Of a stretch of 39,195 nucleotides of DNA, positions 10,900 to 39,195 are shown in pieces. The stretch comes from Negativicutes bacterium (GTDB lineage: Bacteria > Bacillota_C > Negativicutes > Sporomusales_B > JARLHX01), in NCBI GenBank assembly GCA_031292035.1, contig JARLHX010000183.1, positions 1-39,195 of the forward strand, in the 5' to 3' direction. The notes below the pieces were generated by a model, which was not told the origin of the DNA, made no database searches, and saw nothing but the letters and a program-made list of their open reading frames with translations. The first letter of the stretch is position 1; each line of letters opens with the position of its first letter. The position numbers and the translations under genes were made by a program.

Positions 10900-11160
10900 G
10901 CCAAAAGTAATGACTGGGATAAAGCAAGGGCGGACAGCCGCTACAGAGAGCCGGTGGATGGTGCGAACCGGTGCGGGCGTCGTTGCGAAACTCACCCAGG
11001 AGCTTTTCTGCTGAAGCAGGCAATCGCCTGTCTAGGCTGAAACGCCGCCGGGCGTTAGCCGGAAGCCGCAGCATGCGGCGAACGAGTACAATGTAGGGTG
11101 GTACCGCGATATTCGCCCCTATTGACGCCAAGAGTGTCAATAGGGGCGTTTTATTTTTTA
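10900..11160 (+). promoter_or_regulatory. T-box leader, Leu-specific (specifier CUC)
   Basis: This T-box riboswitch reads uncharged tRNA-Leu. Stem I runs from GACTGGG to CCCAGG and contains the AGAGAGCC and GTGCGAACCGG elements. The specifier position, just before the conserved purine in CTCACCC, reads CTC (10991-10993), a leucine codon expected to pair with tRNA-Leu(GAG). The T-box sequence AGGGTGGTACCGCG is at 11095-11108. A terminator follows (CGCCCCTATTGAC with GTCAATAGGGGCG, then a T run, 11114-11160). When leucyl-tRNA is scarce the antiterminator should form and leuA transcription continue. The 5' limit is approximate; 10835-10900 holds another small hairpin. Confidence 0.93.
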
Positions 11161-15643: not shown

Positions 15644-17305
15644 ATGAAGATGTCTGGCGCAAAAGTCATTGTCGAGTGTTTACGCGAACAAGGGGTCGAC
15701 ACTGTTTTCGGTTATCCGGGCGGCACTATTCTACCTTTCTATGACGCCTTATGCGATTCGCCGGTGCGCCATATCCTCACTGTGCACGAACAGGGGGCCG
15801 CACACGCTGCCGATGGATACGCCCGCGCCAGCGGCCGGGTGGGAGTCTGCATCGCCACTTCCGGCCCTGGGGCGACCAACCTCGTGACCGGTCTGGCAGC
15901 GGCCTTTATGGACTCCATTCCGGTGATCGCCATTACCGGGCAGGTGCCGACCTCGCTTATCGGCCGGGATGCCTTTCAGGAAATCGACATCACCGGGATT
16001 ACCATGGCAATCACCAAACACAATTTCTTGGTCAAAGACCCGGCCAAACTGGCTGATACCATTCGCTATGCCTTCCGTATCGCCCGCTCCGGCCGGCCGG
16101 GGCCGGTACTGATCGACGTGCCGCGCGATGTGCAGACCAGCGATGTATTCTTCGAGCCCGCCAAGGGATCGGAAAAGGTTCCTTCGGCCATCCCCGGGCA
16201 GGTTTTAAACCGGATCGAAGCCGCAGCCAGCGCCATTTGCGCCGCTAAGCGGCCGGTCATTCTTACCGGCGGTGGGGCAGTGGCAGCCGAGGCCCAGCAA
16301 GAAGTAAGGATGCTGGCCGAAAAACTGCATATTCCGGTTGTCAGCACCTTGATGGGTCTGGGTGGCTTCCCGGCTTCCCACCCTCTGTTTTTAGGTATGA
16401 CCGGGCTCCACGGCCTGAAGCCAGCCAATAATGCCGTCTTTGAAGCCGATGTCATTATTGCTGTCGGCAGCCGGTTCAGCGACCGGATTACCGGCGATCG
16501 GGCCAAATACGCCGCAGGCAAGACCATCATCCATATCGACGTCGACCCGGCCGAAATCGATAAAAATTTAGCGGCCCACATCGGTCTTACCGGAGACCTC
16601 AAAACCATACTGGGATTTCTGATCGAACGTCTGCCGACAGGAGGCGACAAAGCCTGGCGGGACAAGATCAAAGAATGGAAACGCGAAAAAGAGGCTGTTC
16701 AGGTTGTCGATCGATTGACCGCACCGGGCATTCTCAGCCAGATTGTCAAGCAGACCGCTGGCCAGCCCTGCATTTTTGCCACCGATGTCGGACAGCACCA
16801 AATGTGGGCAGCCCAGCACCTTAAGCTGGAGAACCCGCGGACCTGGATCACTTCCGGCGGTCTCGGCGCCATGGGTTTTGGTTTGCCGGCAGCGCTAGGA
16901 GCGCAGTTAGCCTCGCCGGACAAAAGGGTCATTTTAATCGCCGGTGATGGCGGCTTTAAAATGACTGGGGCGGAACTCTTTACTGTTGCCAGTTACAAGT
17001 TGCCGATTATTTCTGTCATCATCAATAATGGCGGGCTGGGAATGATCCGCCAGCTCCAACAGGTCTTTTTCGATAAACGCTATACTGCCTGCGACCTGCC
17101 GCCGGTAACCGATTTTACTCTGTTTGCTGCAGCCTTTGGTGTCCACGCCGTAAAAGTCGACAGTCGCCGGGCCTTTGCCAAGGCCTTTGCCGCTGCGTTG
17201 GCTTCGCCGAATCCTGAAGTGATTGTGGCCAATATCGCCCCCGAAGAAATGGTGTCGCCGATGACCCCGCCTGGCGGAGCCATCAATGCCTATATCGATA
17301 TTTAA
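15644..17305 (+). CDS. ilvB: Acetohydroxyacid synthase large subunit, copy 1 (Leu at the Trp specificity position)
   Basis: This 553-aa ThDP- and FAD-dependent enzyme makes acetolactate (valine/leucine) or acetohydroxybutyrate (isoleucine). The ThDP glutamate is Glu49 (HEQGAAHAADGYARASGR), and the ThDP/Mg motif GDGGFKMTGAELFT continues to the NN pair. The normally conserved Trp of GMVRQWQ is Leu471 here (GMIRQLQQ). Replacing the equivalent Trp464 in E. coli AHAS II lowers preference for 2-ketobutyrate, and AHAS I naturally has Gln there. I infer an enzyme biased to acetolactate, which fits its place in a Leu-controlled operon. GGGAGGTGG precedes the ATG. The shared small subunit is probably IlvN at 17736. 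Confidence 0.95.
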   Translation: MKMSGAKVIVECLREQGVDTVFGYPGGTILPFYDALCDSPVRHILTVHEQGAAHAADGYARASGRVGVCIATSGPGATNLVTGLAAAFMDSIPVIAITGQVPTSLIGRDAFQEIDITGITMAITKHNFLVKDPAKLADTIRYAFRIARSGRPGPVLIDVPRDVQTSDVFFEPAKGSEKVPSAIPGQVLNRIEAAASAICAAKRPVILTGGGAVAAEAQQEVRMLAEKLHIPVVSTLMGLGGFPASHPLFLGMTGLHGLKPANNAVFEADVIIAVGSRFSDRITGDRAKYAAGKTIIHIDVDPAEIDKNLAAHIGLTGDLKTILGFLIERLPTGGDKAWRDKIKEWKREKEAVQVVDRLTAPGILSQIVKQTAGQPCIFATDVGQHQMWAAQHLKLENPRTWITSGGLGAMGFGLPAALGAQLASPDKRVILIAGDGGFKMTGAELFTVASYKLPIISVIINNGGLGMIRQLQQVFFDKRYTACDLPPVTDFTLFAAAFGVHAVKVDSRRAFAKAFAAALASPNPEVIVANIAPEEMVSPMTPPGGAINAYIDI

Positions 17306-17320
17306 GAGGAGGTGGGTTTC

Positions 17321-17437
17321 ATGACCAGGCAGAATCAGCAGTCTGAGATTATCCGTGTAGGGGGAATCAACGACATTCTAGGCGGTGTCGACCCACAGGC
17401 GGATGAGAATCTGCTCCGGGTTGCTTTGGGGATTTAG
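17321..17437 (+). CDS. 38-aa conserved microprotein, paralog of the 30-aa ORF at 19269
   Basis: I do not recognise this protein. A very strong ribosome site (AAGAGGAGGTGG) lies 15 bases after the ilvB1 stop, and the ORF has 38 codons. Its second half, from Arg12, reads RVGGINDILGGVDPQADENL. The 30-aa ORF at 19269 has RVGGISHELGGVDPQADQNL. Over 27 aligned residues 18 are identical, and 10 of those 18 use different synonymous codons, the mark of selection on protein. There is no signal peptide, membrane segment or cysteine. It is not an obvious attenuator peptide: it lacks a run of Leu, Ile or Val codons. It lies at the end of the ilvB1 unit, just before the promoter of the ilvN unit. A small AHAS-associated factor is possible but unproven. 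Confidence 0.75.
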   Translation: MTRQNQQSEIIRVGGINDILGGVDPQADENLLRVALGI

Positions 17438-17473
17438 ATCATAAAATTCATTGCACTTTTTCTATGATGTATC

Positions 17474-17502
17474 TTGACAAACGGCAAAAGTATGTGGATA
17501 AT
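17474..17502 (+). promoter_or_regulatory. Internal promoter of the ilvN-ilvC unit
   Basis: TTGACA (17474-17479), a 17-bp spacer and GATAAT (17497-17502) form a near-consensus sigma-A promoter immediately before the riboswitch. Confidence 0.85.
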
Positions 17503-17506
17503 GTAT

Positions 17507-17524
17507 ACAACATTACAATGTTGT
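17507..17524. promoter_or_regulatory. Inverted repeat at the transcription start (candidate operator)
   Basis: ACAACATT-AC-AATGTTGT is a perfect 8-2-8 inverted repeat covering the expected +1 of the promoter. It could be a repressor site or a 5' hairpin of the transcript. No protein can be named. Confidence 0.45.
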
Positions 17525-17672
17525 GATGTAAGAAAGTGCATCTAGGGTTCCGCCGTAACAACGGGGCTGGTCCGAGCGATGCAGATGCGGAATGCCGCAT
17601 TACACCGTGGGTATAAAAGACTCTGCGGAAAGTTTCTTACGTAAGATGTAAGAAATTTTCGCAGGCTTTTTT
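17525..17672 (+). promoter_or_regulatory. ykkC-class riboswitch, probably ppGpp type, with terminator
   Basis: The ykkC-class core is recognisable: CTAGGGTTCCG, CTGGTCCGAG, ACACCGTGGG and TAAAAG. P1 forms from GTAAGAAA (17528-17535) and TTTCTTAC (17633-17640). The same TTTCTTAC also pairs with a second GTAAGAAA at 17648-17655 inside a terminator (CTGCG...CGCAG then T6, 17623-17672). Ligand-stabilised P1 and the terminator are therefore mutually exclusive, the layout of an ON switch. Known ppGpp riboswitches (ykkC subtype 2a) often control branched-chain amino acid genes; guanidine and PRPP subtypes usually do not. The subtype call rests on this context, not on diagnostic bases. Confidence 0.88.
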
Positions 17673-17735
17673 GTCGCCACGGTTTTTGTATATTGTATTC
17701 AAGAATGATTTTGTTGACGAGAGAGGAGGATTGCC

Positions 17736-18260
17736 GTGAAACATGTATTGTCGATCCTGGTATATAATCAGCCCGGGGTTCTGGTGCGAGTCGCCGGTAT
17801 GTTCTCCCGGCGCGGCTTCAATATTCATAGCCTGGCGGTGGGCACCACCCAAGACCCCGATTACTCACGAATCACCGTGGTGGTCTGCGGTGACAACGAC
17901 ATTCTCGACCAAGTGATCAAGCAGCTTGACAAGCTGGTGGAGGTTGTCGCGGTGCAGCCGCTGCCGCCGGATAACACGGTACGGCGGGGGATGGCGATGT
18001 TCAAGGTCGCCGCCGGGGAAAAACGCGGCGAGGTGCTGAAACTGGCGGAAGTTTTCCGCGCCAATGTGGTCGATGTTTCAGAAAACACAGTAACCATGGA
18101 AGTGACTGGCGATGAGGAAAAAATCAACGCCTTTGCCGAAGTTCTGGCGCCATACGGGATGCTGGAAATGGTCCGGACCGGTCTGGTAGGATTGGCCCGG
18201 GGCGAAAATACCATTCACCAATACGAGAGGGGACATTATTATGAGCAAATTGTACTATGA
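17736..18260 (+). CDS. ilvN: Acetohydroxyacid synthase small (regulatory) subunit
   Basis: This 174-aa regulatory subunit activates the large subunit and confers valine feedback. It has an N-terminal ACT domain (residues 1-75, with [20 protein letters not shown]) and the C-terminal domain typical of the long IlvN/IlvH form. The start is GTG, eight bases after GAGGAGG. It is the only small-subunit gene in the window and so probably serves both IlvB copies. Its last 20 bases overlap ilvC. Transcription should be set by the riboswitch just upstream. Confidence 0.95.
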
Positions 18261-19236
18261 TCTGGATGCCAACTGGGATGTAATCAGAAACAAAAAGGTG
18301 GCAATTATCGGCTACGGCAGCCAAGGCCACGCCCATGCGCTGAACCTGCATGACAGCGGGGTAGATGTTACCGTAGGCTTGTATAAAGGCAGAAAGTCCT
18401 GGGCCAAGGCCGAGACCGACGGTGTGAAAGTGGCCACGGTGAGCGAGGCGGTTGCCTCTGCCGATATCGTGATGATCCTGATCCCGGACGAAAAGCAAGG
18501 CCAGGTATACCGCGACCATATCGCTCCCAGCCTCAAGTCCGGCGCAGCACTGGCGTTTGCCCACGGCTTCAATATTCATTTTAATCAAATCGTCCCGCCG
18601 GAAAATGTCGATGTGTTCATGGTTGCCCCCAAAGGCCCTGGTCATTTGGTGCGACGGGTGTACACCGAAGGCAAAGGCGTTCCCTGTTTGCTGGCTGTCC
18701 ACCAGAACTTTACCGGCAATGCCCAAGAAATCGGCCTGGCGTATGCCCGCGGGATCGGCGGCACCCGGGCCGGCGTGTTGACCACCACCTTCAAGGAAGA
18801 GACCGAGACTGACCTGTTCGGCGAACAGGCGGTGCTCTGCGGCGGTGTAACCGAACTCATCAAAGCCGGGTTCGAGACCCTGGTGGAAGCAGGTTATCAG
18901 CCGGAATCAGCCTATTTTGAATGCATGCATGAAATGAAACTCATCGTCGACTTGATGTACGAAGGCGGAATGGCGATGATGCGCTATTCCATCAGTGATA
19001 CGGCCGAGTTTGGCGATTACATGACCGGGCGGCGGATCATCACCGCCGAGACCCGCGCCGAAATGAAGAAAATCCTGGCTGAAATCCAAGATGGCGAGTT
19101 CGCGAAAAAGTGGATGCTGGAAAACCAGGTCAACCGTCCGGTGTTCAGCGCTCTTCGCCGGACAGAAGCCGAGCATCAGATCGAAACCGTCGGCAAAGAA
19201 CTGCGGGATATGATGCCCTGGCTGAAAAGCAAATAG
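18241..19236 (+). CDS. ilvC: Ketol-acid reductoisomerase (class I)
   Basis: IlvC isomerises and reduces acetolactate and acetohydroxybutyrate with NAD(P)H and Mg2+. The 331-aa protein is the short class I form: the Rossmann motif is [17 protein letters not shown] (24-40), and the following loop [12 protein letters not shown], with Arg and Ser, suggests NADPH. The C-terminal knotted domain has [12 protein letters not shown] and the [12 protein letters not shown] metal site. The ATG lies inside the end of ilvN, with GAGAGGGG upstream, so the two are coupled. Confidence 0.97.
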
Positions 19237-19268
19237 TCTGAGTAAAACGTGATGAAGGAGGTATCGGT

Positions 19269-19361
19269 ATGGATCGTGTAGGCGGCATTAGTCATGAGTT
19301 AGGCGGGGTTGATCCCCAGGCGGACCAGAATCTGATACGCTTAGCTGGTCTTGCTCAGTAA
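19269..19361 (+). CDS. 30-aa conserved microprotein, paralog of the 38-aa ORF at 17321
   Basis: I do not recognise this protein. A strong ribosome site (GAAGGAGG) precedes the ATG, 32 bp after ilvC. Nearly the whole 30-aa product is the core seen in the other copy (RVGGISHELGGVDPQADQNL followed by IR), while the nine extra N-terminal residues of the other copy are absent. The two DNA sequences differ at many third positions yet keep the residues, so this is an old duplication under protein-level selection. It sits at the end of ilvNC and about 30 bp before the Ile T-box. No membrane segment, cysteine or known metal motif is present. Confidence 0.75.
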   Translation: MDRVGGISHELGGVDPQADQNLIRLAGLAQ

Positions 19362-19389
19362 TAAACGGAATAATAACTTGATTGTTTAA

Positions 19390-19646
19390 AGGTGATGACT
19401 GGGACGAATGTACAGTAAAACCGCTGCAGAGAGCCGGTGGGTGGTGCGAACCGGTGCGTACGCTGTATGATTGGATCACCCAGGAACTGCTTTGCCGAGG
19501 CGCTAAAGGTGCCCAGGTGAAGACGCGACCGCGCGTTACGGCGGAGCTGGCTGATAGGCTGGTAGATAATAGTGAAACATAGGGTGGTACCGCGGATTTT
19601 CCGCCCCTATTGACGTAACCGTCAATAGGGGCGGTTTTGTTTTTTC
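19390..19646 (+). promoter_or_regulatory. T-box leader, Ile-specific (specifier AUC)
   Basis: This is a second T-box with the same parts as the Leu one: GATGACTGGG...CACCCAGG of stem I, AGAGAGCCGGTGG, GTGCGAACCGGTGCG, the T-box AGGGTGGTACCGCG (19581-19594) and a terminator (CCGCCCCTATTGAC with GTCAATAGGGGCGG, then T run). The codon in the specifier position is ATC (19475-19477), isoleucine. Uncharged tRNA-Ile(GAU) should allow transcription of ilvB2. I see no strong promoter between the 30-aa ORF and this leader, so it may gate read-through from ilvNC. The strong similarity to the Leu leader points to duplication and a change of specifier. Confidence 0.93.
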
Positions 19647-38760: not shown

Positions 38761-38846
38761 GCGGTCGTGGCGGAACGGCAGACGCGCTAGCCTCAGGAGC
38801 TAGTGGGGGCAACCTCGTGGTGGTTCAAATCCACTCGACCGCACCA
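38761..38846 (+). tRNA. tRNA-Leu (CAG)
   Basis: An 86-nt tRNA with acceptor strands GCGGTCG and CGACCGC, encoded CCA end (38844-38846), an anticodon arm CTAGC-CTCAGGA-GCTAG giving anticodon CAG, a long variable arm typical of tRNA-Leu and the TTCAAAT T loop. Confidence 0.96.
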
Positions 38847-38848
38847 GC

Positions 38849-38923
38849 GCGGAAGTAGCTCAGTGGTAGAGCATCGCCTTGCCAAGGCGAGGGTCGCGAG
38901 TTCGAATCTCGTCTTCCGCTCCA
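38849..38923 (+). tRNA. tRNA-Gly (GCC)
   Basis: A 75-nt tRNA with acceptor strands GCGGAAG and CTTCCGC, encoded CCA, an anticodon arm TCGCC-TTGCCAA-GGCGA giving GCC and the T loop TTCGAAT. It follows tRNA-Leu by two bases and is surely cotranscribed with it. Confidence 0.97.
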
Positions 38924-38992: not shown

Positions 38993-39083
38993 ATAGCTCC
39001 GGTCAAGTTGACCACATGATGAATGGCGAAGATGAAATGTGCAATAACGTGAGTCTTCGTATTTAAACAACCAACTACATATT

Positions 39084-39195
39084 CGGTTTCGATAGCTAAG
39101 AGGCTCCACCTGTTCCCATACCGAACACAGAAGTTAAGCTCTTACACGCTGAAGGTACTTGGCTGGAAACGGCCTGGGAGAATAAGTAGATGCCG
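39084..39195 (+). rRNA. rrf: 5S ribosomal RNA (copy 2, divergent)
   Basis: The conserved 5S core CTCCACCTGTTCCCATACCG is intact, but many other bases differ from copy 1. Helix II changes from ACGGG/CCCGT to AAGAG/CTCTT with paired substitutions, and the terminal helix is CGGTTTC (39084-39090) with GATGCCG (39189-39195), with one T-T mismatch. Paired changes argue for a functional gene rather than a decayed copy. It is not preceded by a 23S gene but by tRNAs and its own promoter. A base or two may extend past the window. Confidence 0.85.

Follow-up and report, generated by a model that had tools for sequence, protein, structure and literature searches.

Paralogous microproteins of the branched-chain amino acid gene clusters in Negativicutes

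In a 39,195-nucleotide stretch of DNA from a Negativicutes bacterium (assembly GCA_031292035.1, contig JARLHX010000183.1, forward strand; the whole stretch is called the window below), two short open reading frames (ORFs) stand among the branched-chain amino acid (BCAA) genes: gene 1 (38 aa, MTRQNQQSEIIRVGGINDILGGVDPQADENLLRVALGI, 17321..17437, + strand), directly after ilvB1, and gene 2 (30 aa, MDRVGGISHELGGVDPQADQNLIRLAGLAQ, 19269..19361, + strand), directly after ilvC. We found that both belong to a real and apparently undescribed family of Negativicutes microproteins of about 30–50 residues, which has homologues in several genera and is under purifying selection. On balance, we favor the view that the two are paralogues within a BCAA-regulon set of these microproteins, predicted from their sequences to act in trans as small effectors that dock through the C-terminus.

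Two paralogous genes and their family

Strong ribosome-binding sites can be read from the sequence ahead of both ORFs (AGGAGGTG at 17307..17314 for gene 1 and AAGGAGGT at 19255..19262 for gene 2, both + strand), and the pair encodes the same residue in 18 of 27 aligned codons, in 10 of these 18 by different codons; an earlier note on this DNA had reported the same two ORFs, sites and counts, and all proved exact. The ratio of nonsynonymous to synonymous change (pN/pS) between gene 1 and gene 2 is 0.21 (24 codons). When the 1407 stop-to-stop frames of the window were scanned with profiles from which the window proteins had been excluded against self-fulfilment, a profile of 119 relatives recovered both ORFs (E 1.6e-15 and 5.1e-15, against 0.9 for the next frame), as did a profile of 72 relatives of the LSGGP type alone (E 6.8e-13 and 4.5e-13, next frame 0.28). 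Judged by sequence, the two genes are true homologues, alike beyond chance, and the proposal of paralogues under peptide-level selection is borne out. In the tree, gene 1 groups with the ilvB-linked copies of genomes G309, G311 and G312 (support 89/82, short of what counts as a firm fork) and gene 2 with the ilvC-linked copies of G310–G312 (92/89, not firm); the tree rests on 46 columns, with 6 of 28 inner branches firmly supported and a bootstrap that had not settled.

Codon comparisons indicate that purifying selection extends across the family. In the 24-codon core, taken from 25 of 33 copies with the eight GSLDP and IPGVDP types left out, pN/pS was 0.00–0.36 in 57 of the 58 pairs compared, the remaining pair carrying no difference at all, and synonymous change was near saturation in distant pairs. 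Homologues exist, then, and no pair approaches the ratio of 1 that the earlier note had held to speak against a protein. A conserved DNA or RNA element, open by chance and encoding nothing, can hardly explain these data: it has short length in its favor and nothing beyond, and it conflicts with the ratios, with the near-saturated synonymous change, with the ribosome sites read ahead of the ORFs and with the differences in N-terminal length. The peptides are presumably translated.

Holders are confined to a small part of the genomes searched. When 380 genomes, of the class of a Selenomonadales metagenome-assembled genome (MAG), were searched with a profile in all six frames, 24 gave matches at E ≤ 0.1, 14 of them below 1e-7, and a 23-row profile, A2, matched 18 of the 380 at E ≤ 0.05. 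Two of the 34 rows from the A2 search (E 0.03), both hydroxyethylthiazole-kinase-like frames, one in G310 and one in G313, were judged chance and dropped; 32 copies remain, with no genome holding more than three. Two weak matches within longer proteins or frames, to a TctC-like protein in G412 and a 68-codon frame in G736, were likewise judged chance (all these names by reading). Among 398 genomes drawn evenly from the phylum, G309, which the class-wide search had already yielded, was the sole true holder, with two other weak rows (E 0.003 and 0.005). The 80 ilvC loci searched, six of them from Selenomonadales/Selenomonadaceae and the rest from other taxa, contained no member (best E 2.5); a single 43-aa frame used as query against 5.8 billion proteins matched its own window protein only; and a DNA scan of genome contigs with a two-sequence alignment produced 179 pattern stretches, none confirmed by tblastn at 1e-3.

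Protein searches were more productive. A2 returned 191 clusters at E ≤ 10, and all of the 120 matches listed had E ≤ 1e-11, while divergent members as queries returned 134 matches at E ≤ 1 and added Sporomusa among the 120 matches listed. Named holders among the matches listed are Anaerosporomusa, Anaeroselena and Acetonema (Acetonemataceae in the NCBI taxonomy), Anaerospora and Sporolituus, now Thermosinus (Sporomusaceae), Lucifera, now Allolucifera (Veillonellaceae), and Sporomusa, a genus that we take to be Sporomusaceae, together with MAGs of Negativicutes and Sporomusaceae and metagenomes. Members in Anaeroselena agilis, Acetonema longum, Lucifera (Allolucifera) butyrica, Sporolituus (Thermosinus) thermophilus, Anaerospora hongkongensis, Sporomusa carbonis and S. 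aerivorans are annotated as hypothetical proteins, with neither a function nor a family name attached and without a precomputed Pfam domain. Neither window protein matched any Pfam or NCBIfam family at E ≤ 10, the ACT domain of IlvN/IlvH included, and a Pfam scan of the 23 A2 members at E ≤ 1 gave a single chance match by one member (E 0.11). Two PDB matches (E 0.13 and 1.2) were judged chance, leaving no PDB relative, and no description of the family appeared among the matches listed from the literature searched. A co-regulated microprotein is a known kind of thing; what appears new here is the family, and the earlier note's remark that no described family carries its motif holds for Pfam, NCBIfam, PDB and the literature searched.

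Genomic contexts, promoter motif and leader RNAs

Leu/ilv clusters of nine genomes contain 14 of the 32 copies: each of G309–G313 has one behind ilvC and another behind ilvB (10 copies), G288 and G289 have one behind leuB, and G294 and G315 one behind ilvB. The recurrent linkage to BCAA genes that the earlier note had named as a check is therefore present. Six further copies are single genes behind a BCAA-type promoter motif (G298, G304, G305, G306, G307:C1 and G308:C14); those of the four Sporomusa-type genomes (G298, G304, G305 and G306) are of the GSLDP type, and two of the six have a ykkC leader or its remnant. Eleven copies, of the LSGGP/LAGGP type, are divergent from a gene starting MDxLxHA, and this branch has none of the BCAA-regulon signs. 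With G293:C1, a single gene that also lacks a BCAA sign, 12 of the 32 copies stand outside any BCAA context and without the BCAA-type motif. The MDxLxHA neighbor was called in 9 of the 11 loci, and in the remaining two its start can be read from the upstream DNA; the one neighbor tested, in G309, is YdjM (PF04307, E 1e-33). A conserved element, approximately GTCYAYGGTAAGTTnTGG, lies between the LSGGP-type gene and the YdjM gene (loci L120, L124, L127, L130 and L133) and is altered in G309–G313.

These contexts bear on the idea, raised in the earlier note, of a dedicated subunit or regulator of acetohydroxyacid synthase (AHAS, IlvB/IlvN) or ketol-acid reductoisomerase (KARI, IlvC), made beside its target. 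Copies directly after ilvB (window, G294, G315 and G309–G313) or ilvC (window and G309–G313), with ribosome sites near the preceding gene, are what it predicts. Other copies follow leuB or have no enzyme gene beside them, as in all six single-gene loci, and no BCAA link is seen for the LSGGP branch. Because the neighbor varies between ilvC, ilvB, leuB and none, and 12 of the 32 copies have neither BCAA context nor motif, a role specific to these two enzymes is too narrow, and we consider it rather unlikely. As the adjacent enzyme varies and the regulon stays constant, the target may be better sought among the proteins of BCAA starvation than in the adjacent cistron.

The promoter motif TTGAC-N18-TATNATGTATNCA, with small departures, precedes the window ilvN leader and the six single genes, as found by reading of the compared leaders. 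Allowing one mismatch, a search of 16 genomes gave 47 sites (2–5 per genome), against 3 in a reversed control. Units of leuA, ilvN or ilvB follow 23 of the 47 (tblastn with the window proteins) and single microprotein genes follow 6. Two more precede the threonine ammonia-lyase gene ilvA (NCBIfam, above cut-off), one a BCAA-binding-protein-like gene (best NCBIfam match, far below the model cut-off) and one (L236) an ORF that is IlvH-like by eye, for which NCBIfam at E 1e-20 gave no name. Among the 41 sites not used for devising the pattern, 27 are BCAA-linked; one site, L237, runs into the end of its contig and was counted in neither class. If co-transcription is assumed, 13 of the 14 cluster copies are in units headed by the motif, the remaining one belonging to the G311 leu unit, which has no motif at one mismatch, and 19 of 20 are when the six single genes are included.

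A matrix built from 20 of the 23 tblastn-supported leu/ilv sites (the G310 ilvN site L241 and both G313 sites, L248 and L249, were omitted as near-duplicates) gave the six single genes 20.8–32.4 bits and none of the 11 LSGGP/LAGGP-type genes more than -0.9. The background, 2288 stretches each 350 nt long, had a median of -12.1, with 15 reached in 12 of them (the loci contain true sites). In the window the motif takes the form TTGAC-N18-GATAATGTATACA (17474..17509, + strand), a pattern match with a single mismatch upstream of the ykkC leader and ilvN; it is the one match there at up to three mismatches, a count equaled by 16 of 100 shuffles. The window leuA promoter has, by reading, a related but altered sequence that the pattern does not match. 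The palindromic TGTATACA part may be an operator or a start-site feature.

Between that promoter and ilvN lies a ykkC-type riboswitch aptamer (17531..17630, + strand; Guanidine-I model, 56.8 bits, below the gathering score of 63), so that it precedes ilvN, ilvC and gene 2. A like aptamer stands before the ilvN unit in G309–G312 (51.4–55.3 bits) and, by an exact 11-mer, in G313. In G288 and G294 an aptamer (47.5–59.9 bits) and a T-box are in tandem before leuA or ilvN (L112 and L121), an arrangement termed an AND gate by a figure legend in the excerpt of PMC5912903 available to us. In Sporolituus (G308:C14, L092) an aptamer of 55.8 bits, again below the gathering score, precedes a lone microprotein gene, with 196 nt from the aptamer core CTAGGGTTCCG to the start codon and a terminator-like hairpin in between. 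Because a further terminator-like hairpin can be read past the ORF, the gene seems to be alone; the terminator script ranked a different hairpin, 117 nt further on. The leader of G307:C1 (L126/L108) is homologous to that of G308 (L123/L092) and has lost conserved aptamer letters while the ORF was kept, and an Rfam search of this leader did not find the aptamer. An RF00906 match in L093 was a terminator-like hairpin matched by chance. G308:C14 and window gene 2 thus belong to a ykkC-type riboswitch regulon. The excerpt of PMC5912903 assigns ykkC RNAs with BCAA genes to subtype 2a, which senses guanosine tetraphosphate (ppGpp), and the leaders here are probably of the ppGpp class, the ligand being taken solely from their association with BCAA genes.

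The earlier note had placed each gene at the end of its unit and immediately before an RNA switch. The order of genes stands, with gene 1 directly after ilvB1 (AHAS large subunit, 15644..17305) and gene 2 directly after ilvC (KARI, 18241..19236), and ilvN (AHAS small subunit, 17736..18260) lies ahead of ilvC, all on the + strand and named by sequence reading. No intrinsic terminator was found behind either gene with the hairpin script that was also run on the relatives, so the unit ends themselves are not confirmed. Gene 1 would be the last gene of a leuA-leuC-leuD-leuB-ilvB1-microprotein unit behind a T-box leader (10901..11123, + strand), and gene 2 is followed by a T-box leader (19386..19611, + strand) upstream of ilvB2. 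Position directly before an RNA switch holds for the window and its close relatives G309–G312; it is not family-wide, since 13 of 31 relatives have an intrinsic-terminator-like hairpin that starts 2–28 nt past the stop codon. The window as a whole opens with the last part of an rRNA operon (23S end, 5S) and closes with two tRNAs and a further 5S gene (1–136, 385–501, 38761–38920 and 39082–39195).

A fixed C-terminus and candidate modes of action

Members share a layout of a charged N-terminus, variable in sequence and length, followed by H-V-G-G-[IV]-x3-L-G-G-V-D-P-x2-D-x2-L-x-R-L and a short tail. The core D-x3-[DE]-x2-[LM]-x-R is present in 168 of 169 proteins compared, the two window proteins included, a count to which the profile search contributed because it partly selects for the core itself; it does not select for the distance from core to end. 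The C-terminus falls exactly five residues past the core Arg in 157 of the 168 (six in 6, four in 5), which points to a C-terminal docking helix. In an AlphaFold model of a relative, the C-terminal helix (residues 31–40, mean pLDDT 90) is the only confident part. In the ilvB-linked copies of G309–G313 (L111, L114, L115, L116 and L117) the HVGGI half of the core has been lost and G[VI]DPRAD[EG]NLLR is kept together with the fixed end. The fixed end, the single confident helix and this retained segment together suggest that the C-terminal helix is the working part.

The constant spacing between the conserved end and the stop codon could also mark a cis-acting leader or ribosome-arrest peptide that controls a downstream gene by its own translation. 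The last residue is Pro in the LSGGP branch, the terminator-like hairpins that 13 of 31 relatives have past the stop codon would fit, and in the four Sporomusa-type copies a promoter, the ORF and a terminator are followed by a gene on the same strand, so that position alone is no bar there. Other last residues are common in the family, however, and the downstream genes differ between the sets of copies and are often convergent. Leader peptides lie ahead of the genes they regulate, not behind them, while the window ORFs follow ilvB1 and ilvC at the 3' ends of long units and most relatives stand behind enzyme genes or alone. We therefore regard cis control as highly unlikely. Placement after enzyme genes or alone, the varying and often convergent downstream genes and the conservation of the peptide across genera argue instead for action in trans, presumably through the conserved C-terminal 24–28 residues.

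We propose that expression of the BCAA-type members, both window copies included, would accompany that of the leu/ilv genes. Each member would be encoded late in a leu/ilv unit or by a separate gene with the same promoter motif, and in one lineage that gene may also be under a ykkC (probably ppGpp) riboswitch. The working part would consist of two phi-G-G-phi turns (phi, hydrophobic residue) and a DPxxDxxLxR helix that stops five residues short of the C-terminus; it would dock on a partner protein, with the variable charged N-terminus as a linker. The most likely role is that of a small effector, made on BCAA starvation, which would adjust a protein common to BCAA-synthesizing cells, either a pathway enzyme or a regulator and not necessarily the enzyme of the adjacent gene.

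Several observations weigh against this proposal. Thirteen of the 41 sites not used for devising the pattern precede other genes (metX, lysA, pyrB and others), so the motif is not purely a BCAA signal. Seven promoters, six of which precede microprotein genes, were used to devise the pattern by eye and share its fixed columns by design; when just the 20 free columns are scored, four of the six single genes exceed the 95th percentile of random sequence and the other two come close to it. G293:C1 resembles the BCAA-type copies, yet it has neither the context nor the motif (score -1.8). Overall model confidence is low (mean pLDDT 61.8 for gene 1 and 66.4 for the relative), and a weak hairpin ahead of the helix in the gene 1 model is absent from the second. 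Erosion of the N-terminal core half in the five ilvB-linked copies implies that the docking unit may be the last ~15 residues only.

A general effector of amino acid starvation that acts on a target outside BCAA metabolism, such as a transcription regulator, the ribosome or a protease, with differently controlled paralogues feeding the same target, would accommodate the up to three copies per genome in differing contexts, the LSGGP branch outside the BCAA regulon and the motif upstream of metX, lysA and pyrB. It is at odds with the presence of 19 of 20 cluster and single-gene copies in BCAA-motif units, if these are co-transcribed, and no common non-BCAA partner was seen; we consider it possible but doubtful. 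A broader conception, which we think distinctly unlikely, is a lineage-specific family of interchangeable C-terminal docking peptides that would report different starvation states to one protein hub, with paralogues under separate controls: one set under the ppGpp riboswitch and the BCAA motif, and the LSGGP branch under an unrelated divergent promoter beside the YdjM gene.

Although metabolic operons are deemed well annotated, the BCAA units of one group of Negativicutes include a small conserved gene that has been left "hypothetical". The six single-gene copies make the case for a trans-acting BCAA-regulon effector testable, as each could be deleted or expressed by itself, with no evident partner beyond a BCAA-type promoter or riboswitch. 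Were the peptide to bind AHAS, isopropylmalate synthase (IPMS) or a regulator, it would add a new post-translational layer to BCAA control; were it to bind a common hub, starvation signals would be joined in these Negativicutes.

Comparison with known small proteins and leader peptides

The AHAS small subunit IlvN/IlvH is an ACT-domain regulator, and the microprotein resembles it as a small polypeptide co-encoded with AHAS and other BCAA genes. It differs in having no Pfam match and in being far too short for an ACT domain, and the window has a separate ilvN. Among small proteins, CydX is a membrane subunit, and SgrT and MciZ are small effectors. The likeness to these three is a works-like analogy: they have no more than about 50 residues, are co-regulated with the system that they serve and bind a larger protein, binding that is predicted for the microprotein. 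We know of no sequence relation between the family and CydX, SgrT or MciZ, and whereas CydX sits in the membrane, no hydrophobic span was seen on reading of the family sequences. The accessible portion of PMC4325964 describes CydX as an operon-encoded small protein subunit of 37 aa. Leader peptides and upstream ORFs (uORFs) of ilv operons are also short ORFs in a BCAA operon, as in the Corynebacterium ilvB uORF described in the part of PMC10272879 available to us. In contrast to those upstream, cis-acting ORFs, the microproteins are encoded behind enzyme genes or alone, and the peptide itself is conserved across genera.

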